In this document: positions 685-32,256 of the stretch, one piece after another
How positions within the stretch are numbered: the first letter of the stretch is position 1
Layout: each line of letters opens with the position of its first letter
IMG/VR virus record: IMGVR_UViG_3300006810_000117
Coordinates: 1-40,459 of that record
DNA from: a virus
Reading direction: 5' to 3' (one strand)
DNA: 40,459 nucleotides
Position numbers and translations under genes: made by a program
The notes under the pieces: model-generated
Seen by the model: only the letters and a program-made list of their open reading frames with translations
Database searches by the model: none
Told to the model about the DNA's origin: nothing

Positions 685-1023
685 ATGGCACAGAACTTTA
701 GAAGATATCACCTCAATGCCGTAGGCGTTTCTGCGGCTGACATACCCGATGCAGCAAACTTTCCGACGGGATATCACACGATCATTAGTATTCGTATGGC
801 TAACGTCACAAGCAACATGATCATGGCTAAGGCCTACATTAACAATGGCACAGACGACATATCGCTGATTGTTGATGCACCCATTCCGGCTGGAAGCAGT
901 CTTGAGCTAATCGATGGCGGCTCAAAGATTGTAGTCACAGACGCAGACCGGCTGTATGTCCAGAGCGACACCGCAGCATCGATAGATGTGACTGTTTCTA
1001 TCGTACAAGAAATCAGCGAATAG
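685..1023 (+). CDS. Small virion-associated protein, unknown function
   Basis: A 112-aa protein starting with ATG 12 bases after the fibre stop, with a GGAAA-type ribosome site just upstream. Alternating beta-strand composition (for example 'DISLIVDAPIPAGSSLELID' and 'IDVTVSIVQEISE'), no signal peptide and no membrane segment suggest a compact beta domain. Its place between the fibre and the receptor-binding cassette suggests a tail-tip or fibre-attached protein. The function is inference from position only. I do not recognise a named family. Confidence 0.7.
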   Translation: MAQNFRRYHLNAVGVSAADIPDAANFPTGYHTIISIRMANVTSNMIMAKAYINNGTDDISLIVDAPIPAGSSLELIDGGSKIVVTDADRLYVQSDTAASIDVTVSIVQEISE

Positions 1024-1031
1024 GTGCAGTC

Positions 1032-1835
1032 ATGGGACACATAGGAAACACAGTCCAGACTGCTTTTACTAGCTTCGATAAACAGACGATTACTGGCAGT
1101 GGCACAGCGGTCTACACACTGTCTCACAACGTGGCGAATGAGCAAGAAATTGAAGTCTTTGTAAACAACGTCCGTCAGGAAGGTGGGTCAGGTAAGGCAT
1201 ATACCGTGTCTGGCAACCAGATCACATTTAGCGAGAACATCGCCAGCACCGATACAGTTTACGTCAACTTTGCTGGCAAAGCAGTTCAAACGGTTAGTCA
1301 TCCATCTGACCAACCGATGCAAGCGACCACAGGCACCTTTAGCGGAGCAATTTCTGTCGGCACAATTAAAGACAGTTCGAGCACTAACACTGCGATGACC
1401 ATTGATAGCACTGGTCGTATTCTGACACCTGCGAGACCAGCGTTCTTCGCGTATCTCCCCAGCAGTGTTCCTATTAATAATACCTCTGAAACCGATATGT
1501 GCCAGTATATGACATCAACAGACTTCAATGTTGGTGGTCACTATTCAGCGTCTGGTGGTTTTGTAGCACCAATAGATGGCATTTACTCTTTTCAGGTTGG
1601 TTTTTACTTCTATCCAATAGCATATGCAGAGGTGGAAGTTCATAAAAATGGTACTAGATACCAGCGTCTGTCCAATATAGTTGCCGCAAGTGCGGTCAAT
1701 CCCTATGCAAATAATTATGCCTTTCTGATGCAGTTGTCTTCATCCGATGAAGTCAAGGTTGCTGTGTCTGCTGGTACGGCAACACTTTATCATGGTGACA
1801 GAAACACTTTCTTCAGCGGTTTCTTAGTGGGGTAA
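1032..1835 (+). CDS. Tail fibre / receptor-binding protein with C1q-like C-terminal domain
   Basis: A 267-aa protein. Residues about 10-95 form an N-terminal beta domain ('AVYTLSHNVANEQEIEVFVN', then 'YTVSGNQITFSE') typical of a small phage-fibre anchor module. Residues about 115-135 carry the linker 'SSSTNTAMTIDSTGRILTP', which is shared with three downstream genes. The last 130 residues ('GGFVAPIDGIYSFQVGFYF' through 'FFSGFLVG') read as a C1q/TNF-like jelly roll, a fold that trimerises and binds ligands. It is probably the most complete member of the cassette, because it has both anchor and tip. The receptor is unknown. Confidence 0.75.
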   Translation: MGHIGNTVQTAFTSFDKQTITGSGTAVYTLSHNVANEQEIEVFVNNVRQEGGSGKAYTVSGNQITFSENIASTDTVYVNFAGKAVQTVSHPSDQPMQATTGTFSGAISVGTIKDSSSTNTAMTIDSTGRILTPARPAFFAYLPSSVPINNTSETDMCQYMTSTDFNVGGHYSASGGFVAPIDGIYSFQVGFYFYPIAYAEVEVHKNGTRYQRLSNIVAASAVNPYANNYAFLMQLSSSDEVKVAVSAGTATLYHGDRNTFFSGFLVG

Positions 1836-1841
1836 TTAGAC

Positions 1842-2366
1842 ATGGCACTTTCTAAGATAACAAATGGTGGTGTAGCGGCATCTGGTTTACCAGCGGGTAG
1901 TGTATTGCAGGTTGTTAGCACGACAAAGACGGATACTTGGTCTGACACTCCCGGCGCAGGGGTATTTCTTGACATCACAGGTTTATCAGTAGCTATCACA
2001 CCGACTTCAACTACAAGTAAAATACTTGTGACTTTTTCTACTAATGTTAGCGCAAATGGTGCCTCCACAACAGGCGTCCGTTTAATGCGAGATTCAACAG
2101 CAATTAGCGTTGGTGATGCGGCTGGCTCCAGACCGCTTGCCACAACTGGCGGTGGGGGACATGAGGGTGCTAATTGGAACGGTGATGTTTTAGCTAGTTC
2201 GTTCTTAGATTCACCAGCTACAACAAGTTCAGTAACTTACAAACTGCAATTAACTGGAAACGCATCAGCTACGCAGTATGTGAATATGAAGGCTAGAGAC
2301 TCTAATTCTACTGCGGAGGATATGCGAATGACATCTCATATTACTGTGATGGAGATTGCAGGATGA
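1842..2366 (+). CDS. Receptor-binding cassette protein, second type (paralogue of 4639-5130)
   Basis: A 174-aa protein starting six bases after the previous stop. It is defined by 'LPAGSVLQVVSTTKTDTW' near the N terminus, 'ITPTSTTSKILVT' in the middle, 'SFLDSPATTSSVTYKL', and the ending 'HITVMEIAG'. The same landmarks in the same order occur in the gene at 4639, so the two are paralogues. The fold looks all-beta. This type is common next to fibre genes of marine phages, where it is taken to be a fibre tip. That role is inferred from context. Confidence 0.72.
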   Translation: MALSKITNGGVAASGLPAGSVLQVVSTTKTDTWSDTPGAGVFLDITGLSVAITPTSTTSKILVTFSTNVSANGASTTGVRLMRDSTAISVGDAAGSRPLATTGGGGHEGANWNGDVLASSFLDSPATTSSVTYKLQLTGNASATQYVNMKARDSNSTAEDMRMTSHITVMEIAG

Positions 2367-2429
2367 GGCATGAAGCTATCTATAATTTATACTCAGCCGT
2401 GATGATGTAGTCTGGCCGGAGAAACCATA

Positions 2430-2534
2430 ATGGCATACATAGGAAAATCACCTGTAGGCGGTGGGTTTAATAAACTATCATTCCCTGCTGCCTCTGCTAC
2501 AGACACCTACGCTCTTACGCTAGGTGCTGAATAA
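2430..2534 (+). CDS. 34-aa ORF resembling the N terminus of the next gene (possible gene remnant)
   Basis: ATG at 2430, stop TAA at 2532-2534, preceded by GGAG at 2418-2421 with good spacing. The peptide starts 'MAYIGKSPVGGGFNKL', and the gene at 2559 starts 'MAYIGSQQGTAAPILLDSIS', so it looks like the anchor end of the same family cut short by a stop codon. Either it is the stump of an old receptor-binding gene left after cassette exchange, or it is a translated mini-protein. The intact ribosome site leaves translation possible. Confidence 0.5.
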   Translation: MAYIGKSPVGGGFNKLSFPAASATDTYALTLGAE

Positions 2535-2558
2535 CTAATTTACAAACGGAGATAGCTC

Positions 2559-3026
2559 ATGGCCTATATCGGCTCCCAACAGGGGACTGCCGCGCCTATT
2601 CTGTTGGACAGCATCAGCGTTGTGAATGGACAAGCGGCATACACTATGCAGAAGAATAGTGTTAACTACTCACCAGCGTCTGAACTTACGCTACAGGTCA
2701 GTCTCAACGGACTTGTCCAAGCACCTTCTAACAGTTTCACCATAAGCGGAAGCACAATCACCTTTGCCGACCCACTCGTGACCGGAGATGTCATTGACTA
2801 CATCCTCGACCGTGAACCATCTACTGGAACGATGGAACCGCTGGATGCAAGTGTAACAGCAGACAAGATTGCAAGTTCGGTCATGCGGAACGGCATTAGG
2901 GTCAATGGTGCCACACTGTCTACTAATACTACGATTGCATCATCAGAACGCGCCATGGTCGCAGGTACATTCACGATAGACACCTCAACCACACTTACAA
3001 TCAACGGGGAGATGACCATTGTCTAA
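2559..3026 (+). CDS. Fibre-anchor type protein (MAYIG family)
   Basis: A 155-aa protein with ribosome site GGAGATAG just before the ATG. Residues 1-95 match a module I recognise from marine podovirus tail genes: 'MAYIG', 'NGQAAYTM', 'LQVSLNGLVQAPSN', 'ISGSTITFADPL', 'GDVIDYILD'. The C-terminal 40 residues ('TTIASSERAMVAGTFTIDTS') form a short beta region of the kind that ends many such proteins. It overlaps the next gene by eight bases, so the two are probably translated together. Likely role: a base that links fibre or tip proteins to the virion. This is inference from family and position. Confidence 0.72.
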   Translation: MAYIGSQQGTAAPILLDSISVVNGQAAYTMQKNSVNYSPASELTLQVSLNGLVQAPSNSFTISGSTITFADPLVTGDVIDYILDREPSTGTMEPLDASVTADKIASSVMRNGIRVNGATLSTNTTIASSERAMVAGTFTIDTSTTLTINGEMTIV

Positions 3027-3555
3027 ACTTTACGTCAACGACATCTACTCGAAGGCTGGTGCGTCAGAAGCAATCAACATCGACAGTGATGGTAACGTTA
3101 ATATTCCAAACAAACTCACTGTTGGAACTATTCCTGCTGTGTTTGCTCAAGGCGGCAACAACTCCAACAAACAAGTTGAAACAGGAGACAGAATTGGTGC
3201 CACAAACGATGGGCAAGCGGCGTTTTTAACGGATGGTACTCAGCGTTCATTTATTCAAGGCGGTATGACTTACAACAGTGCTACTGGGACATTTACTGTG
3301 CCTGTCGCTGGTCTCTATTACATCATGGGTCAATACTATTTGAACGAGAATAATACAGCAAGAATACAGTGCTACATAAATGACACTGCCGTTTCTCTAG
3401 CGCATACCCATATTAGTGGTGGAACCGTTCGTACTGAGTGTATTCAAAGCCTCTCCGCTAATGATGAAATTGAATTTAGACAAGACACTGGCAGTACCAG
3501 AACAATATATGAGGGTGTGAATCACACGCTTATAAGTATCTATTTAGTGGGGTAA
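3019..3555 (+). CDS. C1q-like tail tip / receptor-binding protein
   Basis: A 178-aa protein. The start is a TTG at 3019, supported by GGGGAG at 3006-3011 and by overlap with the previous gene. The N-terminal 40 residues ('KLYVNDIYSKAGASEAINID') act as a short linker. The rest is a C1q-like jelly roll: 'GTFTVPVAGLYYIMGQYYL', 'ARIQCYINDTAV', 'ECIQSLSANDEIEF', ending 'LISIYLVG'. It lacks the anchor module of the 1032 gene, so it may assemble on the 2559 protein. The receptor is unknown. Confidence 0.72.
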   Translation: MSKLYVNDIYSKAGASEAINIDSDGNVNIPNKLTVGTIPAVFAQGGNNSNKQVETGDRIGATNDGQAAFLTDGTQRSFIQGGMTYNSATGTFTVPVAGLYYIMGQYYLNENNTARIQCYINDTAVSLAHTHISGGTVRTECIQSLSANDEIEFRQDTGSTRTIYEGVNHTLISIYLVG

Positions 3556-3561
3556 TGGATA

Positions 3562-4098
3562 ATGGCATCAGTATTGAACGTTGACCAGATCGGTCACTCA
3601 ACATCAGGCACTACCGCTCTGACTATAGACAGCAGTGGTCGTGTTTTAATGCCTAATAAACCATTTGTGTCTGCCGCTTGGAATGGTTCTGGGACAACCG
3701 CATATTCTACTCCGCTTTCTCGTTTCACCACTTACAATACAACTGATACTAATATTGGGTCTGGTAACACGAGAATAATTTACAAAAACGATTACAACAT
3801 GCTGGATACAACTAATGGATTAGTAACCATACCAGTGACAGGTATCTATCTTATAGTTGGACATTATGCGGCGGCATTATCAGGAACTTTAGGTAGAAGG
3901 ATTGGACATCTGTTTGTAACACCCTCTGGTGGTTCTATCACGGATTATGGCGAGTGGGTTGAAAGTTACGGCACCTATGATGATTCAACAGGGACAAAAT
4001 TGTTAAGTCTTAACGCAAATGATCAAGTCGCATTTGGTCACAATGTTTCGGTTATAAATTGGGATGCGTTTGGTTTTGAAATGATTTTGCTAGGATAG
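3562..4098 (+). CDS. C1q-like tail tip / receptor-binding protein
   Basis: A 178-aa protein of the same build as its neighbours. The N-terminal linker 'STSGTTALTIDSSGRVLMP' matches the 'TAMTIDSTGRILTP' linker of the 1032 gene, and is followed by a C1q-like domain with 'GLVTIPVTGIYLIVGHYAAA' and 'LLSLNANDQVAFGHN', ending 'FEMILLG'. Linkers are conserved across the cassette while the domains differ, as expected for interchangeable binding modules. Spacing to both neighbours is a few bases. Confidence 0.72.
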   Translation: MASVLNVDQIGHSTSGTTALTIDSSGRVLMPNKPFVSAAWNGSGTTAYSTPLSRFTTYNTTDTNIGSGNTRIIYKNDYNMLDTTNGLVTIPVTGIYLIVGHYAAALSGTLGRRIGHLFVTPSGGSITDYGEWVESYGTYDDSTGTKLLSLNANDQVAFGHNVSVINWDAFGFEMILLG

Positions 4099-4110
4099 GG
4101 GTAATTAGAT

Positions 4111-4626
4111 ATGACAAGCATACTTAAAGTCTCAAGCATCCAAGACCCCACAAACAGCAACACAGCGTTACAGATTGATACGAGTGGGCGTGTGACTACG
4201 CCTGTTGTTCCTGCTTGGCGAGTGTCACTAAACGCAACCCAATCAGTTTCATCTACTGGATACACTCAAGTACAACTTGACCTAACAAGTACAGAAAACT
4301 GCTTTTTAAATGGTGGTGTGACAATCTCAAGTTATGAAGTGGTTGTGCCAATAACAGGAATTTACGCCGTACATTCTTATGTAAGGGTTGATGGCGTCGG
4401 AACAGGTTATGTGCAATTAGGTATAACGATAAATGGTGTAAGAACTGGCATGAGTGATTCATACAGTATAGAGGGTTCTCCACCGGGTAATTACACCACT
4501 ATAAACGCAAGCGATGTTTTCAGCGTAAACGCAAACGATACATTTAGAATGGAAGTTTATACAAGCAATGACAATTCTTACACTATAAATAGCAATACTG
4601 TGTTTTCAGGGCATTTAGTAGGATAG
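4111..4626 (+). CDS. C1q-like tail tip / receptor-binding protein
   Basis: A 171-aa protein with the linker 'NSNTALQIDTSGRVTTP' near residue 15, followed by a C1q-like domain ('VVPITGIYAVHSYVRVDG', 'INASDVFSVNANDTFRMEV', ending 'VFSGHLVG'). It is the fourth C1q-like protein in 3.6 kb. The domain boundaries and the 'VP-TGIY' and 'NAND' landmarks are as in the 3562 gene. Composition is more AT-rich by eye than in the replication genes, as in most of this cassette, which may reflect exchange between phages. Confidence 0.72.
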   Translation: MTSILKVSSIQDPTNSNTALQIDTSGRVTTPVVPAWRVSLNATQSVSSTGYTQVQLDLTSTENCFLNGGVTISSYEVVVPITGIYAVHSYVRVDGVGTGYVQLGITINGVRTGMSDSYSIEGSPPGNYTTINASDVFSVNANDTFRMEVYTSNDNSYTINSNTVFSGHLVG

Positions 4627-4638
4627 AGGGGGACTAAC

Positions 4639-5130
4639 ATGGGATTAATACGATTACAATCCAGCAGTCTTCCTAGTGGGTCTGTGTTGCAAGTGGTTCA
4701 GGGTATCAAGACTGACTACAGTTATACTACATCGTCATCATTCGCCAGTAGTGGTCTTAAAGCATCAATCACACCCTCATCAACCAGCAGTAAGGTGCTT
4801 GTAACAATACACACTCTGTTGGGACAAAGTAATTATCTCAAACGTATTTACTTGAAGTTGATAGGCGGTAATGCCGCCACGGGGTACATAGGTGATGATG
4901 GAACTGGTGTTGAGTGTTCTATGGCTGTCACAACAAGAGTATCGGACGCTTATGGGATGATACCAGTAAGTTTGCAGTATCTTGATAGCCCATCTACCAC
5001 ATCTTCAACAGAGTATGATTTGCATTGGGCTGTTGAGGCTAATGAAGGCATTATGAACAGGCCGCAGAATTTAGATGCAAACGGCGCTAAAACAGCAAGC
5101 ACAATCGTCCTACAGGAGATTGCTGGATGA
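4639..5130 (+). CDS. Receptor-binding cassette protein, second type (paralogue of 1842-2366)
   Basis: A 163-aa protein. 'LPSGSVLQVVQGIKTDY', 'ITPSSTSSKVLVT', 'QYLDSPSTTSSTEYDLHW' and the ending 'TIVLQEIAG' line up with the same landmarks in the 1842 gene. It is the last member of the cassette, and its TGA overlaps the ATG of the 5127 membrane protein, so the receptor-binding and lysis genes are translationally linked. All-beta, presumably a tail tip. The role is inferred from context. Confidence 0.72.
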   Translation: MGLIRLQSSSLPSGSVLQVVQGIKTDYSYTTSSSFASSGLKASITPSSTSSKVLVTIHTLLGQSNYLKRIYLKLIGGNAATGYIGDDGTGVECSMAVTTRVSDAYGMIPVSLQYLDSPSTTSSTEYDLHWAVEANEGIMNRPQNLDANGAKTASTIVLQEIAG

Positions 5131-5339
5131 GTGCGATGAAGCAGACACTATCGGTAGCACCAGAACTGCGTGTTGCTCTGGATTTAGAAGCACATGAGAA
5201 AGAGTGTGCTATTCGCTACTCAGCAGTCGAAGAGAAACTTAATATGCTAGACAAACGCCTGTGGCGGCTGGAAGCAATGATCATGGGGTCTACTGTGGTC
5301 ATCGTGGGTCTGGCAGCGTCACTATTAATGAAGATCTAA
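5127..5339 (+). CDS. Small single-TM protein with coiled coil, possible holin-like lysis protein
   Basis: A 70-aa protein. Residues about 18-49 are charged and helical ('KECAIRYSAVEEKLNMLDK'), and residues about 52-69 form one hydrophobic membrane segment ('MGSTVVIVGLAASLLM'). This build resembles XhlA-like or small holin-type proteins. It starts by ATGA overlap with the receptor-binding gene and opens the lysis module. Holin function is an inference. The 3-TM protein at 6463 is the other candidate. Confidence 0.65.
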   Translation: MSAMKQTLSVAPELRVALDLEAHEKECAIRYSAVEEKLNMLDKRLWRLEAMIMGSTVVIVGLAASLLMKI

Positions 5340-6462: not shown

Positions 6463-6834
6463 ATGATCGCAGCCCTTATACCAGCCGTATCGAGTATCCT
6501 GGACAAAGTGATACCAGATGCCGACACAAAGCAGCGCCTGGCAGCTGAGATTAGCACCATGGCAGAAAAGCATGCCCAGGAGATCGCTCTGCAGCAGATC
6601 GAGATCAACAAGGCAGACGCCAAAGGTAACTGGTTTCAGTCGTCCTGGCGTCCACTTACAGGCTACGTATGTGTCCTGGGTTTCATGGTTAACTTTCTGA
6701 TATCACCGATTGCAGCTGGGTTTGGTGTACACATACCCCAGGCTGACACATCGACTATGTTGCCGGTTCTGATGGGTATGCTCGGCCTGGGTGGCATGAG
6801 AAGCTATGAGCGCATCAAGGGTGTCGGTAAGTGA
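6463..6834 (+). CDS. Holin, GTA-type 3-TM family
   Basis: A 123-aa protein. An amphipathic N terminus (1-15) and a charged helix (20-55) precede the family landmark 'WRPLTGY' at 62-68, then hydrophobic segments at about 68-88 and 97-113 and a basic tail. This matches the 'holin of 3TMs, for gene-transfer release' family found in alphaproteobacterial gene transfer agents and marine phages. It should permeabilise the inner membrane and let the lysozyme out. It lies three bases after the lysozyme gene. Confidence 0.82.
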   Translation: MIAALIPAVSSILDKVIPDADTKQRLAAEISTMAEKHAQEIALQQIEINKADAKGNWFQSSWRPLTGYVCVLGFMVNFLISPIAAGFGVHIPQADTSTMLPVLMGMLGLGGMRSYERIKGVGK

Positions 6835-6885
6835 TGTGGTGCAAAGACGATCATACGACCAAAGAACAAGCGGAGATCAATAGAA

Positions 6886-7095
6886 ATGCCAAAGGTAACG
6901 ATGGAGCGCGTCCTGGCGTGGAAACTGCTGCCCCGGTTAGTAATGGCAGTCCTCTTATGGCAGTATGTGGCAGTCTTAGATTGGTACATGGCGATACCCC
7001 AGGACATAGTATCGACACAAGCGACAGCCCTAACAGCAACGGTTACTGGGGCGCTTAGCGGTGCCTTTGGTTTATGGTTAGGCCACGAACGCTAA
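6886..7095 (+). CDS. Small two-TM membrane protein of the lysis module
   Basis: A 69-aa protein: 'MPKVTMERVLAWKLLPR' followed by hydrophobic segments at about 12-33 and 46-65, ending in a short polar tail. I recall similar proteins ('RVLAWKLLPR', 'GALTGAF...W') after lysozyme and holin genes in marine podoviruses. A ribosome site GGAG lies about ten bases before the ATG. It may be an antiholin or second holin. It is the last gene before the late terminator. Confidence 0.7.
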   Translation: MPKVTMERVLAWKLLPRLVMAVLLWQYVAVLDWYMAIPQDIVSTQATALTATVTGALSGAFGLWLGHER

Positions 7096-7132
7096 TGCAA
7101 ATTAAATAAATAAAGATGCAATTTGTATCTAG

Positions 7133-7164
7133 ACATCGTCCCCCCAATGTGGACGGTGTTTTTT
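7133..7164 (+). terminator. Rho-independent terminator closing the late operon
   Basis: The stem ACATCGTCC (7133-7141) pairs with GGACGGTGT (7151-7159), nine pairs including one G-U, around a nine-base loop, followed by six T (7159-7164). It lies 37 bases after the last lysis gene and seven bases before the next promoter motif, so it separates the late block from the early block. Confidence 0.85.
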
Positions 7165-7170
7165 CGAAGT

Positions 7171-7186
7171 ACTTGTGTTCCCCCAT
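7171..7186 (+). promoter_or_regulatory. Promoter-like motif, copy 1 (early/att block)
   Basis: ACTTGTGTTCCCCCAT at 7171-7186. Its 14-base core TTGTGTTCCCCCAT recurs exactly at 9362, 11935 and 20877, always in a gap upstream of a gene block. It is probably a promoter for the phage RNA polymerase, and it lies directly after the late terminator. Confidence 0.75.
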
Positions 7187-7230
7187 GTTGTGTGGTAGAG
7201 AATCGGTAGGAAGTCCACTTGTGGCGAGCA

Positions 7231-7280
7231 GCTGACTTCTAATCAGCAGGTTGGGGGTTCGAGTCCTCCCGGAATCGCCA
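7231..7280 (+). other. Probable attP core: 3' half of a tRNA-Arg(TCT) gene
   Basis: The sequence folds as the 3' half of a tRNA. The anticodon stem GCTGA/TCAGC encloses the loop CTTCTAA with anticodon TCT (7238-7240). Then come a variable loop, a T arm with loop TTCGAGT closed by GGGGG/CCTCC, the 3' acceptor strand CGGAATC (7270-7276), discriminator G and encoded CCA (7278-7280). The matching 5' acceptor strand (GATTCCG) and a D arm are missing upstream, so this is not a working tRNA gene. Such fragments are the attP cores of phages that integrate into a host tRNA and rebuild its 3' end. The integrase gene begins about 0.9 kb downstream. Confidence 0.78.
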
Positions 7281-7321
7281 CTCTTGAGACTTCTGCGACA
7301 ACATGTCACAGGAGAGCAACA

Positions 7322-7540
7322 GTGAGCATATTTAAGTCAAAACCTACCCAAGTTACTTGGCAGTCAGCCAAGCCTTTCTCAGTCGATCTTTACAGCAGCC
7401 GGTACCCGGTGTGCGGCAGCCACATGGTATGGGCTGTCGTGGGCTATAAGTGGGTTCGCATCCGCAAAGCCTTCGGCCAGGTCGTGCCATTTAAGGTACG
7501 CCGCGCAGAGTGGGATCAAATTGCGAAGAGGGCTCTGTAA
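7322..7540 (+). CDS. Early small protein, unknown function
   Basis: A 72-aa protein starting with GTG at 7322 after the ribosome site AGGAGAG. It is basic and Trp/Tyr-rich ('VTWQSAKPFSVDLYSSRYP', 'VWAVVGYKWVRIRKAFGQ'), with no membrane segment. It is the first gene after promoter copy 1 and the att site, so it is expected to be expressed early and to act on the host or on regulation. No family recognised. Confidence 0.6.
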   Translation: MSIFKSKPTQVTWQSAKPFSVDLYSSRYPVCGSHMVWAVVGYKWVRIRKAFGQVVPFKVRRAEWDQIAKRAL

Positions 7541-7953
7541 TGGAGCCGCGTCTGATCGAAAAGTATCGTGTCGGGGGTGACATCAAAACCCTCGGCGCGC
7601 ACGAAACCAGGTGGCAGTTTGGCAACCACGAGATCCGCGTACGTATACGCCGTGGCAACTGGCAGTATTACATGAATGCTAATTCAAGGATCTCTGGCTG
7701 GAACGAGCGCAGCCTGGCCGATTTCCCTGAGTGGCTGGATGTGCGTTGTCCAACAATGACAGATGACCAGCTGCCGGCAGTAGAGAAATGGTTACGCCAA
7801 GCACTAGCTAATGACGGCGATACCCGTGGTTTTGAGATTAGTACTAAACGCTATTTGCCGCGCCAGAAAGAGTTTGTGGGGCAGCCGTCTAGGCATTGGA
7901 TTGCTGAGTGCGACCGGGGCAAGCCCGAAAGAATACAATCATGGACGGAGTAG
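7540..7953 (+). CDS. Early protein, unknown function
   Basis: A 137-aa protein. The ATG at 7540 overlaps the previous stop (TAATG), and this start is preferred over the in-frame ATG at 7510 inside the upstream gene. Charged, with several Trp and Arg ('RWQFGNHEIRVRIRRGNWQY'), no membrane segment, probably cytoplasmic. It lies between the att site and the integrase. I do not recognise a family, and no helix-turn-helix is evident, so a repressor role cannot be claimed. Confidence 0.6.
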   Translation: MEPRLIEKYRVGGDIKTLGAHETRWQFGNHEIRVRIRRGNWQYYMNANSRISGWNERSLADFPEWLDVRCPTMTDDQLPAVEKWLRQALANDGDTRGFEISTKRYLPRQKEFVGQPSRHWIAECDRGKPERIQSWTE

Positions 7954-7958
7954 AGAGC

Positions 7959-8141
7959 ATGTACATAGATCCCATCGACCCATTCACACACATGGTCAAC
8001 TTAAACGCTGAGATCAAACGGCTTGAGGATGAGCTGTTTGACGCCGCCGGTCGCGGCGAGCCGTGCGACAACATAGAGACTAACTTGTCGGTGATGTACC
8101 AGGCGCGAGCTGACGGCCACACAATGATCCCACTGTTTTAA
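7959..8141 (+). CDS. Small early protein, unknown function
   Basis: A 60-aa acidic protein 'MYIDPIDPFTHMVNLNAEIK', with a helical middle ('RLEDELFDAAGRG'). The start at 7959 is chosen because an AGAG-type ribosome site lies just before it; in-frame starts at 7941 or 7908 are possible. It directly precedes the integrase. An excisionase is possible by size and place, but the sequence has no recognisable Xis features. Confidence 0.5.
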   Translation: MYIDPIDPFTHMVNLNAEIKRLEDELFDAAGRGEPCDNIETNLSVMYQARADGHTMIPLF

Positions 8142-8158
8142 TATTGGAGAGCACAGTC

Positions 8159-8995
8159 ATGGATACACGTATTGAGAACTTCACTTTTAAGTATCACGCC
8201 CGGATCTGGTCTAAAGAAAAGCACCGCAACGAAAGCACCCACCGCATCCAGCGTTTTGTAGGTGTCGTGGGTAATATCGAGCTGGCTGAGATTGATGGCA
8301 GCCACCTGTACCGCATGATGGATGCATTAGAGGCAGACGGCTTATCTAAAGCAACCATTAATCGCTACGTGGCTGCCGTACAGGCGGTGTTGAGCTTCGC
8401 CAGGGCGTCTGGTATGGCAGCACGTGTAATCAGCGTTAAAACGCCCTCAGAAGACCACCGCATCCGGTTCTTTAGTGACCAGGAGCTGGACGCGATTGAG
8501 CGCTTCTGTGATAACCCTCGTATACCGATGTGGTTTAAGGAGATGTGTGATCTGGCTCGCTACACCGGCATGCGTCACTCAGAGATCAGCAACCTGCGTG
8601 ACCCATCGAAGGCGCGTGTCGAAGAGGGTGACGATGGTCTGTGGTGGATCACTCTGTTTAAGACTAAGAACGGTGATCAACGTCAGGTAGCTTTGTACAA
8701 ACAGGAAGCGATTGATGCAGCTCGCAGCCTAGCTGCCGGGTTCCCTTACAATGCAAAAGAGTTCTACCTACTCTGGAACGTCCTTAGAGCGCGTGTAGCG
8801 CCTGGTGATAAGGACTTTGTATTCCACGTATTCCGGCACACCGCAGCTAGCGCCATGGCCAACGACATGCGTTTAAACAGCGATGTCATTGGTCAGTGGC
8901 TTGGCCACAGAAATCACAAAACAACGTCTAAGTATATCCACATTAAGCCGGAAACTATTGGCGACATTGCAAAACGAATGGCGGCAGCTGGCTAG
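8159..8995 (+). CDS. int: Tyrosine site-specific recombinase (integrase)
   Basis: A 278-aa protein that should catalyse integration of the phage at a host tRNA locus. The N-terminal ~95 residues form a SAM-like core-binding domain ('HRIQRFVGVVGNIELAEID', 'KATINRYVAAVQAVLSFA'). The catalytic domain has R139 ('TGMRHSEI'), a probable K170 in the beta hairpin, H223 and R226 ('HVFRHTAAS'), H250 ('WLGH') and the nucleophile Y259 ('SKYIHI'), so all residues needed for catalysis are present. The start at 8159 follows GGAGAG; a TTG at 8144 is the alternative. The protein is shorter than lambda Int and lacks an obvious arm-binding domain. Confidence 0.93.
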   Translation: MDTRIENFTFKYHARIWSKEKHRNESTHRIQRFVGVVGNIELAEIDGSHLYRMMDALEADGLSKATINRYVAAVQAVLSFARASGMAARVISVKTPSEDHRIRFFSDQELDAIERFCDNPRIPMWFKEMCDLARYTGMRHSEISNLRDPSKARVEEGDDGLWWITLFKTKNGDQRQVALYKQEAIDAARSLAAGFPYNAKEFYLLWNVLRARVAPGDKDFVFHVFRHTAASAMANDMRLNSDVIGQWLGHRNHKTTSKYIHIKPETIGDIAKRMAAAG

Positions 8996-9024
8996 TTGCT
9001 GTTCACCCTTTGTTCTGATAAGCT
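8996..9024 (+). promoter_or_regulatory. Weak candidate host sigma70 promoter
   Basis: TTGCTG (8996-9001) and TAAGCT (9019-9024) are separated by 17 bases in the gap after the integrase stop. The -10 box is poor. It is listed because the first transcription of the RNA polymerase gene needs a host promoter, and this is the best place seen for one. Confidence 0.25.
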
Positions 9025-9057
9025 AAGTCTAAGAAAGATAGAGAAAGGCGAAAAACA

Positions 9058-9336
9058 ATGATTTATTATTATACCAAGCGTTTGTTTGAAGGAGTTTTGT
9101 ACGGTTGCATGACAACAGCCAGCAGCTGGTGTAACTGCCCTACAGCGCCACCAAACACCGCAGCATTTGATAAAAAACGCTGTTTCAAAAGACTGAAAAG
9201 CAGGTCGTATAGCCTTGTTAAAAAAGGCACAGTCGTTGCATCAAAAGATCGTTATTCGGCTGTGAGCTACGGTTTTGTAAATCTTTATACGTCGCACCCA
9301 ACCCACATTCCCTGTATCCCCTCAGTGATCTCATAA
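9058..9336 (+). CDS. Unrecognised 92-aa ORF between integrase and RNA polymerase
   Basis: ATG at 9058 with an AGAAAGG-type ribosome site about 10 bases upstream. The protein is Tyr/Ser/Cys-rich and basic in the middle ('DKKRCFKRLKSRSYSLVKK'), with no membrane segment. Base composition is more AT-rich by eye than in the flanking genes. No family is recognised. It could be a recently gained lysogeny or host-takeover gene, or a spurious ORF in a long gap. Confidence 0.45.
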   Translation: MIYYYTKRLFEGVLYGCMTTASSWCNCPTAPPNTAAFDKKRCFKRLKSRSYSLVKKGTVVASKDRYSAVSYGFVNLYTSHPTHIPCIPSVIS

Positions 9337-9361
9337 CTCATTGTATTTACTGTAATTCTAA

Positions 9362-9375
9362 TTGTGTTCCCCCAT
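9362..9375 (+). promoter_or_regulatory. Promoter-like motif, copy 2 (before RNA polymerase)
   Basis: TTGTGTTCCCCCAT, followed by AGCATATA exactly as in copy 3, giving 22 identical bases. It lies 33 bases before the RNA polymerase ATG, so the polymerase may amplify its own transcription. Confidence 0.75.
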
Positions 9376-9408
9376 AGCATATACGTAGGGGACACTAAGG
9401 GGATCAAT

Positions 9409-11913
9409 ATGACATCTATGGATAGACTAAATGGCTCTACGCTTGCCCAGCTGCAGCGTGAGAAGCAGATGATGACTGACGGCCACGACCGTTTCTTAGA
9501 CCGTCAAGCCAAGCTAAAGGATTTAAGCATTGCGCCGGCTAACTCTAGACTTCTGAAGGACGCACTCGCGGCAACCACAGAAGCATTACGTATTAGGTTG
9601 GACGAAGCGTGTGCAGCTGATGGTCGGCCTTTCGATTGGGTACTAGATCTAAAGTCTTTGGATACTGAGCTCCTAAGTTACTTAGGTCTCGTGAATTGCA
9701 TGGAAGGCGTTGGTATGGCTGCGACCAGGACTAGCGTACTTCGCAACATCGGCGGACGTGTCGAAATGGAGCACTTTAGTGTTGAGCTGAAGGCATACGA
9801 CAAGGCGCTTCACGATAGGATTACAAGCCTCGCTACAAGCAATAACAGCAGCAGCGAGCACCGGAAGAAGGCTGTAAGACACATAGCAGCTAAAGAAGGC
9901 TTTGTGCATGATAAATGGTCTCAAGAGCGTAGGATGAAAGCAGCTGCACCCATCCTTAGCGCTATACTTGAGGCATCAGGTGTCTTCGAGGTTTGGACAC
10001 AGATCAAAGACAACAAGACTGTGTACAGAATTGGTCTGTCCGAGGAAGCCTCAGAGGGCATCGCTGACATCAATCAAGAGATCAGCTGGAATGAGCCTGT
10101 GTTTACACCGATGATCACACCACCGAAACCTTGGGACAGTGATGACAGTGGTTGTTACTTAGATCCAGCACTGGCTAGTACTACGCCTCTAGTGCGCCAT
10201 ATGTCACCTAAGCAGCGTGGAATGCTAAAGTCAGCAATACGTAGTCGCCGTATGCAGCCGGCCTTAGATGCACTAAATGCAATCCAGGCTACACGTTACA
10301 CCATGAACACATACGTACTCGCAGCTGTAGAGTGGGCATGGGAAAACAGCCTACAGCCGGGCTCTAGTTTCCCTCAGCGTGACAAGCTGGAGCACATTAA
10401 GTTCCCTGAGAACTACGATGAGCTGTCTGATGAAGACAAAAAGGGCATTCGGCTGAAGGCGCAGGACATCCGTGCTCTCAATAAGCAAGTGGATGCTGAT
10501 CGCTCGATGATGACCATGGATCTAAGGCAAGCTAGAGACCTGGCTAATTACGAGCATTTCTACCTGCCTCACAGCTTTGACTTTAGGGGTCGTATTTACC
10601 CAGTGTGTAACTTCAACACGCACCGCAGCGACCACATCAAGTCTCTATTTACCATAGCTGACAAGAAGCCAATCACTGAATCTGGTGCCAGGTGGATTGC
10701 CATCCAGGTAGCCAACACCGGCGACTTCGGAAAGATCAGTAAGCAATCATTCGAAGACCGGGTGCAATGGGTCATCAATAATGCTGATCGTATAGCAGAG
10801 ATCGGTAACGACTTCGAGGGTACCTATGATGGCGATGATCCTGAGCAGCTGTACTGGTCTAAGGCAGACAAGCCATTTGCATTCCTGGCTGCTTGCCGAG
10901 AGTTCTTTGGCTTCTGGGTTCACGGCACTGACTACGAAAGCGGCTTGCCTATCAACCTCGATGGTTCCAACAGTGGCATCCAACACTTTAGTGCGGCCAG
11001 CTGTACTGAGACTGACGGAGCCCTGGTCAACCTGGTGCCAGGCGACAAGCCTCGGGACATCTACCAGGCTGTAGCAGACAAGGTGACTGATCTGTTGAAG
11101 GCTGACGATGACCCGGTGGCTAAAGAGTGGCTCGACTATGGTGTCACAAGGAAAGTCGTAAAGCGCAACGTGATGACCTACGGATACTCAAGTGGCATCT
11201 ACGGCTTCACGGATCAGCTAATGGAAGACCTGATGATCCCACTGCGTAACAGTGTGAGAAAAGGTGACCTGGATAAGCACCCATTTAGTGACCCAGGTAA
11301 GGCTGCCAGGAAGCTAGCCAATGCAAACTGGACAGCCATAAACCAGGTCATCGTAGGCGCTGCAGATGGCATGCGGTTCTTCCAGGCGTTTGCACATGCC
11401 CTGGCTGACGTTAATCAGACCATGAGCTGGTTTACGCCGGTCGGGTTCCCAGTCGATAATGCGTACTATAAAAACAAAGCTAAGCGTCTACGTATCTACC
11501 TATACGACAAGCAGGTAGACAGCCAGGTACGCACCAGCGCTGTACTCAACATGGCCGACATTCGGACTGTTGATAAACGCAAGTGTGGTGCAGCTGTGAG
11601 CCCTAACATGATCCACAGCCTGGACAGCAGTCACCTTATGAGCACTGTTCTCAAGTGTCTCACGAAAGGTGTGCGTAACTTCATGCTAATTCATGACAGC
11701 TTCGGCACAGTGCCGGCAGACACTGACAAGCTCTTCATGGCTGTACGTGAGGCGTTTGTCGCACAGTACGATGGCGTGTGTATCTACAGTTTCATCACTG
11801 ATCAGATCCTCGAACACATCGACCTGGGCTTGGACAAACAAGCGCCAACAATACCAACTAAAGGCAGCCTGGACATAAAGGCTGTACTGCAGAGTGACTA
11901 CTGCTTTGCGTAG
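9409..11913 (+). CDS. Single-subunit DNA-directed RNA polymerase (T7 type)
   Basis: An 834-aa protein, close to T7 gp1 in length. The ATG at 9409 follows AAGGGGA; a longer reading from the GTG at 9364 starts inside the promoter motif and is rejected. Family motifs are intact: 'DFRGRIYP', the first catalytic Asp at D518 ('LDGSNSGIQHFSAA'), the nucleotide-binding helix K585-RNVMTYGY593 (K631 and Y639 in T7), and the second catalytic Asp at D763 ('HDSFGT'). It should transcribe the replication and late blocks from phage-specific promoters, most likely the four TTGTGTTCCCCCAT sites. Its own early expression probably relies on the host polymerase. Confidence 0.95.
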   Translation: MTSMDRLNGSTLAQLQREKQMMTDGHDRFLDRQAKLKDLSIAPANSRLLKDALAATTEALRIRLDEACAADGRPFDWVLDLKSLDTELLSYLGLVNCMEGVGMAATRTSVLRNIGGRVEMEHFSVELKAYDKALHDRITSLATSNNSSSEHRKKAVRHIAAKEGFVHDKWSQERRMKAAAPILSAILEASGVFEVWTQIKDNKTVYRIGLSEEASEGIADINQEISWNEPVFTPMITPPKPWDSDDSGCYLDPALASTTPLVRHMSPKQRGMLKSAIRSRRMQPALDALNAIQATRYTMNTYVLAAVEWAWENSLQPGSSFPQRDKLEHIKFPENYDELSDEDKKGIRLKAQDIRALNKQVDADRSMMTMDLRQARDLANYEHFYLPHSFDFRGRIYPVCNFNTHRSDHIKSLFTIADKKPITESGARWIAIQVANTGDFGKISKQSFEDRVQWVINNADRIAEIGNDFEGTYDGDDPEQLYWSKADKPFAFLAACREFFGFWVHGTDYESGLPINLDGSNSGIQHFSAASCTETDGALVNLVPGDKPRDIYQAVADKVTDLLKADDDPVAKEWLDYGVTRKVVKRNVMTYGYSSGIYGFTDQLMEDLMIPLRNSVRKGDLDKHPFSDPGKAARKLANANWTAINQVIVGAADGMRFFQAFAHALADVNQTMSWFTPVGFPVDNAYYKNKAKRLRIYLYDKQVDSQVRTSAVLNMADIRTVDKRKCGAAVSPNMIHSLDSSHLMSTVLKCLTKGVRNFMLIHDSFGTVPADTDKLFMAVREAFVAQYDGVCIYSFITDQILEHIDLGLDKQAPTIPTKGSLDIKAVLQSDYCFA

Positions 11914-11932: not shown

Positions 11933-11948
11933 ACTTGTGTTCCCCCAT
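11933..11948 (+). promoter_or_regulatory. Promoter-like motif, copy 3 (replication block)
   Basis: ACTTGTGTTCCCCCAT in the gap between the RNA polymerase and the first replication gene, 37 bases before the ATG at 11986. It is followed by AGCATATA as in copy 2. Confidence 0.77.
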
Positions 11949-11985
11949 AGCATATAGACCCCATAAAAAAGAAAACGAGGATCGT

Positions 11986-15376: not shown

Positions 15377-17137
15377 ATGAAACGCATCGTCTTCGACATC
15401 GAGACTAACAGTCTCGACCCTGACGTTATCCATTGTCTGATCTGTGAAGACTTAGATACGGATTCAATCAAATCGTTTACAGCTGACAATATGGAAGATG
15501 GGCTGCAGCTACTCGCCCAGGCTGATGAGATCATTGGCCATAACATAATCAGCTACGACATTCCCAGCCTTCAGAAAGTCTACAGCAGTTTTGTTCTCCC
15601 TGACACTGTACGTGTAACGGATACGCTAACGCTCTCCAGGCTGATCCACGCCGACCTTACCAATGAAGACTATGAGACCAACTGGTCACATGCAGACGCT
15701 GAGATCCTCCCGAAGCGCATGTATGGTTCCCACAGCCTGAAGGCATGGGGTCTACGTATTGGTCTTCATAAAGGTGACTATGATGGGGGCTGGGAAACCT
15801 TTAATGAAGACATGTGGTACTACTGCGTCCAGGACGTAAAAGTCACCAAGGCTCTGTACAAGAAGTTAGACCCGGACAACTACAGTCAGCCGGCTGTCGA
15901 GCTTGCTCATACCCTGGCAACACTATGTGACAAGATCGGTAAGTTTGGCTGGACGTTCGACGTGAAGAAAGCCAACGAGCTGTATGCTGTCCTGGCAGCC
16001 AGGCGCTCAGAGATCGAGGGTGAGCTGCATGACTTGTTTGACCCTTGGGAGATACACGAAGAGTTCATCCCAAAGCGTGACAACAAGACCCTGGGCTACA
16101 AAGCCGGTATACCATTCGACAAAGTCAAAGTCGTGCAGTTCAATCCAAACAGCCGGCGGCACATCGAGCGCTGCCTGACACATAAGTATGGCTGGACGCC
16201 TAAACTAACCACCGCCCAGGGACACGCACAGATCGATGAGACTGTGTTGTCTTCGCTGGACTACCCAGAAGCACAAAAGCTCGCTGAGTTCTTCATGATT
16301 CAGAAGCGCATTGGGCAGCTGGCTGAAGGCAACCAGGCATGGCTACGTCTGCAGCGTGACGGAAAGCTACACCACAGCATCATTAGCCAGGGTACTGTCA
16401 CACACCGGGCATCACACCGTAATTGTAACCTTGCTCAGGTGCCGGCCACCAGGCTGCCATACGGTAAGCAATGCCGTGAGCTATTTACAGTACAACCAGG
16501 CTACAAGCTGCTAGGTGCAGACCTATCAGGAATCGAGCTGCGCTGCCTGGCGCATTACATGGAAAACAGCACGTACACCAGGGAGCTCCTGGAAGGTGAC
16601 ATACACACCGTAAACCAGCGAGCAGCTGGCCTCGAAACACGCGACCAAAGTAAGCGGTTTATCTATGCGTATCTCTACGGTGCCGGCGCTGCCAAGATTG
16701 GTGAGGTGGTCGGTGGCGGCTTCAAAGAAGGTAGGCAGCTGCTTGATCGTTTCAATGAACGGATGCCAGCTGTAGGACGCCTGAGAAAGGCCGTAGAGAG
16801 CGCTGCAGAGCGTGGTTATCTACTGGGGCTCGATGGTAGGCACATCAAGATCAGAAGCCCTCACAAGGCTCTGAACAGCCTTCTGCAGGGTGCTGGCGCA
16901 ACCATCGCGGCTACCTGGCTAATCGAGACACAAAAGCAACTGATCGAAGCTGACCTGGACGCCAACATCATGGCCTGGGTTCACGATGAAATCCAAATAC
17001 AAGTCAGAGAAAGGGACGCAGATCATGTCGGTGATATCGTTCGAAAAAGCGCGGAAAGCGCTGGAGAAGCGTGGGATTTCTGTCTCCCAGTCGCAGCTGA
17101 GTGGCAGCTCGGAGACAGCTGGGCAGACACCCACTAA
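15377..17137 (+). CDS. DNA polymerase, family A (T7 gp5 type)
   Basis: A 586-aa replicative polymerase, shorter than T7 gp5 (704). The ATG at 15377 follows GGAGAG, and a longer frame from 15275 is rejected. The 3'-5' exonuclease has 'VFDIETNSL', 'GHNIISYDIPSL' and 'YCVQDVKVT', so proofreading is intact. The polymerase has motif A D382 ('GADLSGIELRCLAHYM'), motif B 'RDQSKRFIYAYLYGAG' with Tyr430 at the E. coli 762 / T7 526 position, and motif C 'WVHDEIQIQV' with D537. The Tyr class is linked in the literature to lytic phages, which contrasts with the integrase. The 3' end overlaps the 17025 gene by 113 bases. Confidence 0.95.
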   Translation: MKRIVFDIETNSLDPDVIHCLICEDLDTDSIKSFTADNMEDGLQLLAQADEIIGHNIISYDIPSLQKVYSSFVLPDTVRVTDTLTLSRLIHADLTNEDYETNWSHADAEILPKRMYGSHSLKAWGLRIGLHKGDYDGGWETFNEDMWYYCVQDVKVTKALYKKLDPDNYSQPAVELAHTLATLCDKIGKFGWTFDVKKANELYAVLAARRSEIEGELHDLFDPWEIHEEFIPKRDNKTLGYKAGIPFDKVKVVQFNPNSRRHIERCLTHKYGWTPKLTTAQGHAQIDETVLSSLDYPEAQKLAEFFMIQKRIGQLAEGNQAWLRLQRDGKLHHSIISQGTVTHRASHRNCNLAQVPATRLPYGKQCRELFTVQPGYKLLGADLSGIELRCLAHYMENSTYTRELLEGDIHTVNQRAAGLETRDQSKRFIYAYLYGAGAAKIGEVVGGGFKEGRQLLDRFNERMPAVGRLRKAVESAAERGYLLGLDGRHIKIRSPHKALNSLLQGAGATIAATWLIETQKQLIEADLDANIMAWVHDEIQIQVRERDADHVGDIVRKSAESAGEAWDFCLPVAAEWQLGDSWADTH

Positions 17138-17375
17138 AGAATACGATCTGACACTGCACGACCTGGAAATGTGGGTCGTCCTGGATCGAGCGCTACGGCG
17201 TCCGTTTACCACCAAAGGTCAGTTTGCCAGGGACAGCGCAACCATCATTGCATGCGCTGCCGACCTCGGGCTGATCTCTACCAGGATCGATGAAGAGCGT
17301 TGGGGCAACGTCTGGTTCATCACTCAGCACGGTATGGATTTTCACAAGGGGATATTAAATGAAATTACTGATTGA
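17025..17375 (+). CDS. Unknown protein, long overlap with the polymerase 3' end
   Basis: A 116-aa protein beginning 'MSVISFEKARKALEKRGISV'. The ATG at 17025 has AAGGGA about eight bases upstream; an earlier in-frame ATG lies at 16986. Residues 45-116 ('TLHDLEMWVVLDRALRR', 'DSATIIACAADLGLIST') look like a folded, helical domain resembling a small winged-helix. The first third is encoded inside the polymerase gene in another frame. It overlaps the exonuclease start by 17 bases. Function unknown. Confidence 0.6.
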   Translation: MSVISFEKARKALEKRGISVSQSQLSGSSETAGQTPTKEYDLTLHDLEMWVVLDRALRRPFTTKGQFARDSATIIACAADLGLISTRIDEERWGNVWFITQHGMDFHKGILNEITD

Positions 17376-20874: not shown

Positions 20875-20890
20875 ACTTGTGTTCCCCCAT
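20875..20890 (+). promoter_or_regulatory. Promoter-like motif, copy 4 (late block)
   Basis: ACTTGTGTTCCCCCAT, identical over 16 bases to copies 1 and 3. It lies about 570 bases before the first late gene (21458), leaving a long untranslated leader that includes the repeat array. Confidence 0.75.
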
Positions 20891-31741: not shown

Positions 31742-32256
31742 GTAAACCAAAAGAGCCACGCGCCAAGGCACCGCCTCGGTATGGCAATGGTACCCATCCA
31801 CAACGCGCACCTAAGAACAACTATTTCGCAACGCTCATGTCCACACCAGAGGGCAGGGCGCTGCGTAAAGAGTGGTCTAAACGCCCCAGGAAGAACCCTG
31901 GGCGGCCTAAAGGTGTGCCGGATGGTTACAGAAAGAAAACAATCGAACCTCTACGGCAAGAGCTGCGAGGCGAGGCAGAAAAGGTAGTCGAAGTAATGAC
32001 AAAGAAGCTAGACGTTAATCCAGATGAGTACGCAACCGAGGCACTGGTAACAGCTGTCGAGATCATGCGGTCACCTGATGCAACCAGGGACAGGCTGTCA
32101 GCTGCGCGACTTGTATTAGACTTTACCAAGCAGAAGCCGGCATCAAAGTCAGAAATGGCTATCAGCCAGGCTGAAAGTTTCCTCGAAGGACTGTTACAAG
32201 AAGAGCAAACCAATGGACAAAAAGCTGAGGCAAATCAGGAAGAGACTACACACTGA
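31738..32256 (+). CDS. Terminase small subunit-like protein
   Basis: A 172-aa protein directly before the large terminase and overlapping it by 44 bases. The basic N-terminal region contains 'RKNPGRPKGVPDGY', an AT-hook-like GRPKG that could touch DNA. The centre is helical ('EPLRQELRGEAEKVVEVMTK', 'TRDRLSAARLVLDFTKQK'), and the C terminus is acidic and Gln-rich, as in small subunits that dock to the large one. The assignment rests mainly on position and build. It would recognise the packaging site. Confidence 0.72.
   Translation: MSKPKEPRAKAPPRYGNGTHPQRAPKNNYFATLMSTPEGRALRKEWSKRPRKNPGRPKGVPDGYRKKTIEPLRQELRGEAEKVVEVMTKKLDVNPDEYATEALVTAVEIMRSPDATRDRLSAARLVLDFTKQKPASKSEMAISQAESFLEGLLQEEQTNGQKAEANQEETTH

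Follow-up and report, generated by a model that had tools for sequence, protein, structure and literature searches.

How does a phage that carries an integrase but no recognisable repressor stay silent once it has integrated? This question is raised by IMG/VR record IMGVR_UViG_3300006810_000117, a viral sequence that was analysed whole (the window, 40,459 bases; the record ends without overlap). The original prediction had placed four unrecognised proteins and an integrase, all on one strand, between an att site and a T7-type RNA polymerase (RNAP) gene, and our open reading frame (ORF) list and family scans agree with this. The locus is a cassette for integration and early transcription in a T7-like phage of marine type. 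Its elements all point the same way (+), in the order late terminator, promoter-like repeat P1, phage attachment site (attP), small genes 7322, 7540 and 7959 (named by their start positions), integrase, small gene 9058, repeat P2 and RNAP. We suggest that lysogeny is controlled without a repressor, through the polymerase's self-amplifying loop and the placement of attP. This is the account we favour, although it is held tentatively and falls somewhat short of probable.

The att site ahead of the cassette, which had been predicted, corresponds to the 3′ half of a tRNA-Arg(TCT) gene. It lies 913 bp upstream of the integrase, in the stretch before 7322, and is taken here as the putative attP core. 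ARAGORN made no tRNA call in the window, and no bacterial counterpart (attB) of the core was seen. One of the 11 viral stretches with the exact core (L250; the prefix L marks related loci) carries a complete tRNA-Arg gene. These 11 stretches name no host, and only general tRNA similarity was found in phage records. The same position recurs in relatives. In 86 loci with both integrase and RNAP (82 contigs, window included), 40 tRNA-like elements were found, and 39 of them lay upstream of the integrase, 33 on the same strand, with anticodons TCT, CAT, GAA, TGT and TTT. None lay between integrase and RNAP and one, a tRNA-His, lay downstream; the scan extended over 310 kb upstream, 113 kb between the two genes and 440 kb downstream. 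Most of the elements are 3′ halves, and ARAGORN called a tRNA at four of those submitted (L120, L121, L127 and L149).

The promoter-like repeat TTGTGTTCCCCCAT occurs four times in the window (P1 to P4, Table 1), each time with 0-1 mismatch. When up to 3 mismatches were allowed, 4 copies were found compared to 0.98 expected, and none of 100 shuffles reached 4. Viral contigs provided seven full RNAP loci with 95-100% identity to the window (L001-L007), a partial one with 92% (L020) and twelve with 36-46%. Close relatives whose sequence reaches P1, P2 and P3 have them at the same positions, and in distant relatives the element is altered in sequence yet again repeated. In 43 of the 82 contigs, the sequence preceding RNAP has a 12-mer in common with the region 3.3-4.6 kb past the integrase start, and in 39 with the region 50-2700 bp upstream of the integrase. 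Five random reference stretches, used as a control, gave 1-4 and 0-6 contigs, respectively. Such sharing should be expected of promoters that co-evolve with their polymerase. RNAP lies behind P2 and is, hence, probably self-amplifying.

The stretch before attP was also compared with the stretch before RNAP. The comparison used 23 of the 33 same-strand tRNA halves (10 near-duplicates or short-flanked halves were left out) and L016, whose tRNA-Leu-like element was placed by eye. A copy of P1 was present 58-120 bp before attP in 16 of these 24 loci (p ≤ 0.037), and in the window the likeness of P1 to the stretch before RNAP had p = 0.003 against 300 other window stretches. The hairpin that ends just before P1 folds with -14.3 kcal/mol (z = -3.96; none of 200 shuffles as good) and its counterpart in L003 with -15.7 kcal/mol (z = -6.0), although a consensus scan of 6800-9450 did not list the window hairpin. 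Of 25 loci folded without a shuffle control, 22 have a terminator-like hairpin whose end lies 67-124 bp ahead of attP, and the other 3 have a weak one. In the related loci, a sigma70-like site between terminator and attP was enriched over 13 groups (Fisher p = 1.1e-4; p = 0.006 when each group is represented by its worst member), as scored with a hand-entered matrix.

Taken together, the putative attP lies between P1 and the integrase-RNAP block, and the terminator-like hairpin would insulate P1 from the late genes. Recombination of attP with a host tRNA-Arg gene would carry P1 to the opposite end of the prophage, together, in the relatives, with the host-type promoter beside it. This would leave integrase and RNAP downstream of the host tRNA gene, and the prophage would be silent for want of enough RNAP to start the loop. 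A promoter-like repeat of its own stands in front of the RNAP gene, so that a shortage of polymerase should perpetuate itself; read-through leaking from the tRNA, or excision, would restart the loop. The small genes would encode accessory, early host-directed or integration-related proteins and not the switch. Control of lysogeny by silencing the polymerase gene, one of the two options originally put forward, fits the anatomy of the locus best; the further step, that integration itself silences the phage, we infer from this layout. An integrated copy is perhaps represented by L149, where a complete tRNA-Met (27-103) is followed by integrase (432) and RNAP (1427). A tRNA right before the integrase-RNAP block is as expected of such a copy, and this metagenome contig may show the attL side of a T7-like prophage.

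Table 1. Features of the window. pN/pS, ratio of nonsynonymous to synonymous change between the window and L003-L007; L003-L006 are mutually close, hence these are not five independent comparisons.
Feature	Position	Strand	Remarks
Intrinsic-terminator-like hairpin with T run	7131..7164	+	closes late (lysis) operon just before P1
P1, phage-RNAP promoter-like repeat	7173..7186	+	TTGTGTTCCCCCAT; 58 bp ahead of attP anticodon arm
Putative attP core, 3′ half of tRNA-Arg(TCT) with CCA	7226..7280	+	47 bp exact in 11 viral stretches
7322, 72-aa protein, widespread in phages	7322..7540	+	pN/pS 0.11-0.28; relatives in 41 viral loci
7540, 137-aa protein in accessory (swap) slot	7540..7953 (ATG 7540)	+	pN/pS 0.49, one relative
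7959, 60-aa acidic protein directly before integrase	7959..8141	+	pN/pS 0.00
Tyrosine integrase	8144..8995	+	Pfam PF00589 E=1.6e-16; phrog_1 E=1.4e-38
9058, 92-aa fast-evolving protein adjoining P2	9058..9336	+	pN/pS 0.38-0.61
P2, promoter-like repeat	9362..9376	+	47 bp ahead of RNAP start codon
T7-type single-subunit RNA polymerase	9409..11913 (ATG 9409)	+	phrog_414 E=1.9e-188
P3, promoter-like repeat	11935..11949	+	just after RNAP, ahead of replication genes
T7 gp5.7-like winged-helix protein	17025..17375	+	PDB 5LGM (T7 fusion 5.5/5.7) E=1.5e-6
P4, promoter-like repeat	20877..20890	+	ahead of genome's second half (structural genes, by eye)

Several observations weigh against this account. 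A 12-mer was shared with neither stretch in 22 of the 82 contigs, and no P1 copy was found in 8 of the 24 loci (L145, L123, L128, L130, L133, L134, L008 and L016; in L016 a common element was seen outside the tested stretch). The sigma70-like site was noticed by eye ahead of testing and is not significant in the window itself (p = 0.43), where a consensus promoter scan of 6800-9450 gave 0 sites versus 2.7 in shuffles. Neither test, therefore, detected a host-type promoter in the window from which the first RNAP would be made. When the gap between integrase and RNAP was scored for sigma70 sites in 25 loci, p was 0.025 for L112, 0.05 for L130 and 0.83 for the window, and L007 has a weak site after its integrase (TTGCCG-17-TATAAA, p = 0.08). 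The sites in L007 and L112 would remain joined to RNAP after integration. L149 is a distant relative with only 26 bases before its tRNA, too few to prove host DNA. Since the phage attP of L120 and L121 also gives an ARAGORN tRNA call, such a call does not by itself prove integration in L149. Finally, an RNAP-alignment scan of genome contigs, which needed short exact motifs, found no prophage of the clade; 2 of the 122 motif-matching stretches encoded a remote RNAP relative (25-27% identity).

The absence of a recognisable repressor, as originally predicted, was confirmed by a MarR profile, by PF01047 and by Pfam and PHROGs scans of window proteins. These negatives cover this record, whose ends do not overlap, and a regulator may sit in a missing piece. 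A profile built from six phage MarR-type sequences found no member among window ORFs of at least 30 amino acids (best E = 1.4, the integrase), and PF01047, the Pfam MarR model, gave zero matches in the record and was positive in 14 of 14 control genomes. Neither thus found a counterpart of the MarR-like regulator that stands beside the integrase in phages of the LUZ100/HTVC019P type. The six-sequence profile also found none at E ≤ 1e-3 in 91 related loci, many of them incomplete, and none in the stretch from Bordetella phage BB8. Scans of 20 further window proteins with Pfam, and of 10 of these with PHROGs, gave no regulator above cut-off; Pfam covered 28 window proteins in all, and the MarR searches alone covered all frames. 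The ORF at 5127-5336 had a weak match to MerR-DNA-bind (E = 0.022, below the model's cut-off), and other weak library hits of window proteins had E above 0.01.

Regulator-like genes do occur at this position in other phages. A protein of 109-121 amino acids precedes the integrase in LUZ100, HTVC019P, HTVC201P, CRP-804, CRP-125 and Limnohabitans phage YIMV22061. It is annotated as MarR-like in five of the six and as hypothetical in the Limnohabitans phage, which was grouped with them by sight. The annotation of BB8 has no MarR-like gene before the integrase. In two relatives with 40% RNAP identity, an XRE-type helix-turn-helix (HTH) gene precedes the integrase (L011:854-1093 and L012:667-906; PF01381 E = 4e-10 and 1e-9), which suggests that regulators vary from clade to clade. 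Between integrase and RNAP, L008, L009, L011 and L012 encode a protein of 174-220 amino acids with a stretch that looks HTH-like by eye; two of the four had weak Pfam MarR scores (E = 0.12 and 0.21) and the other two none. The member of this family in L151 had a weak MprA score (E = 0.001, below cut-off). When the loci were clustered, the family filled the integrase-RNAP gap in 7 of 34 clusters; families in these clusters were extended by iterative profiles and remote members are less certain.

The strongest rival explanation is integration without lysogeny. The phage would be essentially lytic and would integrate only rarely and transiently, as in T7-like cyanophages, with no immunity and hence no repressor. 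We regard this as a serious possibility, though a doubtful one. As far as the available text of the source goes, T7-like cyanophages with an integrase and a tRNA attP integrate without forming stable lysogens, and a repressor homologue was not found (PMC8776855). The failure to find a prophage relative in genome contigs or to recognise a repressor in the window is also as this rival would have it. However, the same text places the cyanophage attP downstream of the integrase, and the window attP is upstream with a promoter-like repeat in front. In addition, L149 resembles an integrated copy, and regulation among the wider group is suggested by the 7 of 34 clusters that have HTH-like genes between integrase and RNAP.

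P1 could instead serve replication or packaging as a promoter close to the end of the genome, with attP adjacent because of its left-end location and with no role in silencing. We consider this unlikely, and it is compatible with the other explanations. T7 phiOL is such a promoter, and P1 comes immediately after the terminator-like hairpin of the late genes. Five of 29 loci (L007, L114, L122, L125 and L149) are on contigs that start less than 200 bp from attP, which would suit a genome end there; the starts may be physical ends of the genome or places where assembly broke off in sequence common to phage and host. A left-end promoter gives no account, however, of why the 86 loci have no tRNA element between integrase and RNAP and one further right, nor of the sigma70-like enrichment in relatives.

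A regulator that our searches did not detect may be hidden among the small genes, most likely 7959 and less likely 9058 or 7322, and may repress P2 or an early promoter. We think this quite improbable, and the original proposal that one of the four is a new lysogeny regulator is unsupported by our data. None of the four had a match at E < 0.1 in Pfam, PHROGs, NCBIfam or PADLOC, and structure prediction, which among the four covered 9058, gave an AlphaFold model with a predicted local distance difference test score (pLDDT) of 47. Coding selection acts on all four genes to an unequal degree; integrase and RNAP have pN/pS of 0.07-0.15. Furthermore, in L134 and L145 the integrase is the only ORF of note from attP to RNAP.

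The four genes differ in how well they would suit the role. 7322 was ruled out as a lysogeny gene because it is widespread in phages without an integrase: outside the clade, the sequence retrieved for 31 of 36 loci, at most about 12 kb each, contained neither an integrase relative nor a relative of the T7-type RNAP. 7540 is absent from L003 and L004 and diverged in L007. In L005 its slot is occupied by a Mom-like DNA-modification gene (L005:4283-4831; phrog_1384 E = 8e-19) and L006 has the same layout, which suggests a swap slot for counter-defence genes within the cassette. The Pfam scan gave 7540 a weak match to an antitoxin model (E = 0.19). 9058, originally the best candidate, is not supported in that role: its pN/pS is the highest of the four, it is 41 amino acids long in L007 and its model is poor. 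Its C-terminus is conserved (motif VSYGFVxLYTSHPTH) and its N-terminus is variable. The 9058 family stands immediately before RNAP in 6 of the 34 integrase clusters and alongside the HTH-like gene in 2 of them and, therefore, 9058 was ruled out as a simple replacement of the HTH gene.

In favour of 7959, its protein is invariant within the clade, the gene differing from that of each of L003-L007 by 5 silent substitutions and by none that alters an amino acid, and other integrase-carrying T7-like phages keep a MarR-like gene at this position. Its relatives are confined to the window's clade in a search reaching close relatives only, and none was found in phage records. An ORF in front of the L040 integrase resembled 7959 on inspection by eye; since BLASTP did not align the two, they are not taken as homologues. 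7959 may still be a regulator, though it is acidic, only 60 amino acids long and without any match.

A repressor elsewhere in the genome had been named as an outcome that would count against the prediction. One protein with a regulator-like fold was found elsewhere in the record, at 17025-17375; it has an N-terminal extension and also resembles proteins of Rhizobium phages and BB8. Its model (pLDDT 66) matched mostly MarR and PadR chains in Foldseek, from E = 0.03, with VIA Z up to 8.9 over 72 residues. T7 is strictly lytic, and gp5.7 acts on the stress form of the host RNAP. That this protein is the regulator is very improbable, since its profile matches gp5.7, it sits inside the replication block, it is kept in L008 and L015 although both have their own HTH-like gene, and a Z near 8 can reflect a common arrangement.

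The rest of the record is in keeping with a T7-like phage. Of the genes that follow RNAP in T7, endonuclease I was recognised by family scan (PF05367 E = 2e-51), and putative genes for single-stranded DNA-binding protein, primase/helicase, DNA polymerase and exonuclease were named by eye; a phage lysozyme and a holin were found by family scan. With its RNAP the phage belongs among Autographiviridae-like phages; the best listed RNAP matches in 50,697 phage records are about 30-32% identical and all 2,580 matches are below 60%. Short motifs of the protein at 32213-33784 (large terminase by eye) were found in 514 viral stretches, all of which encode a relative, indicating that such phages are common in the collection; the best 80 of the 514 are 75-100% identical. 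Eight consecutive ORFs of 112-267 amino acids at 685-5130, between a tail-fibre-like end and the lysis genes, have the appearance by eye of duplicated fibre or decoration genes. In six relatives (L108, L114, L117, L120, L132 and L137), a terminator-like hairpin overlaps the integrase stop codon, with -9 to -14 kcal/mol as folded without a shuffle control. It might resemble an attenuator ahead of RNAP; the fold scan of the loci showed none at this place in the window.

Known systems share parts of this layout. Like phages of the LUZ100/HTVC019P type, the window has a T7-type RNAP directly downstream of a tyrosine integrase and, like LUZ100, a phage promoter directly before RNAP. It differs from this type in lacking a detectable MarR-like gene of 109-121 amino acids before the integrase, and from LUZ100 in that the latter has a tRNA-Leu between marR and integrase on the opposite strand. 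According to its available text, the LUZ100 study put forward a similar loop, braked by MarR, and did not yield stable lysogens (PMC10134795). P-SSP7 and S-TIP37 also have an integrase and a tRNA-derived attP, with no repressor homologue reported in the available text of their authors, which places attP downstream of the integrase with tRNA-Leu as the target (PMC8776855); the window half is upstream. P-SSP7 further differs in having a gene annotated as a MarR-like regulator before the integrase. In mycobacteriophage BPs, integration likewise alters a control gene through an attP inside the control region; the accessible text has the BPs attP cut the repressor gene itself (PMC4557955), whereas the window attP lies outside the ORFs taken as genes and would cut promoters from integrase and RNAP. 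No published statement of such splitting of promoter and RNAP by attP in T7-like phages was recognised, in a search that did not reach most subscription journals.

The same logic may apply to other integrase-carrying T7-like phages with a tRNA or attP left of RNAP. By annotation, the tRNA lies left of RNAP in LUZ100 and in the Limnohabitans phage. The attP of P-SSP7 is presumably left of RNAP too, being downstream of an integrase that precedes RNAP. Integrases are present in 9 of 10 marine T7-like roseophages, according to the available text of one study (PMC11092137). It is possible, though on balance rather unlikely, that a large group of marine-type T7-like phages practises lysogeny without a repressor, in which integration unplugs the lytic cascade from its early promoter or promoters. 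For the silencing of lysogens in marine T7-like phages, the literature in its available text offers a MarR-like regulator (PMC10134795) or integration without lysogeny (PMC8776855). The layout yields a clear prediction that one cloned cassette, compared in its attP and attL forms, would address. If true, integration that disconnects RNAP from its upstream promoter would explain how phages without a repressor are silent.

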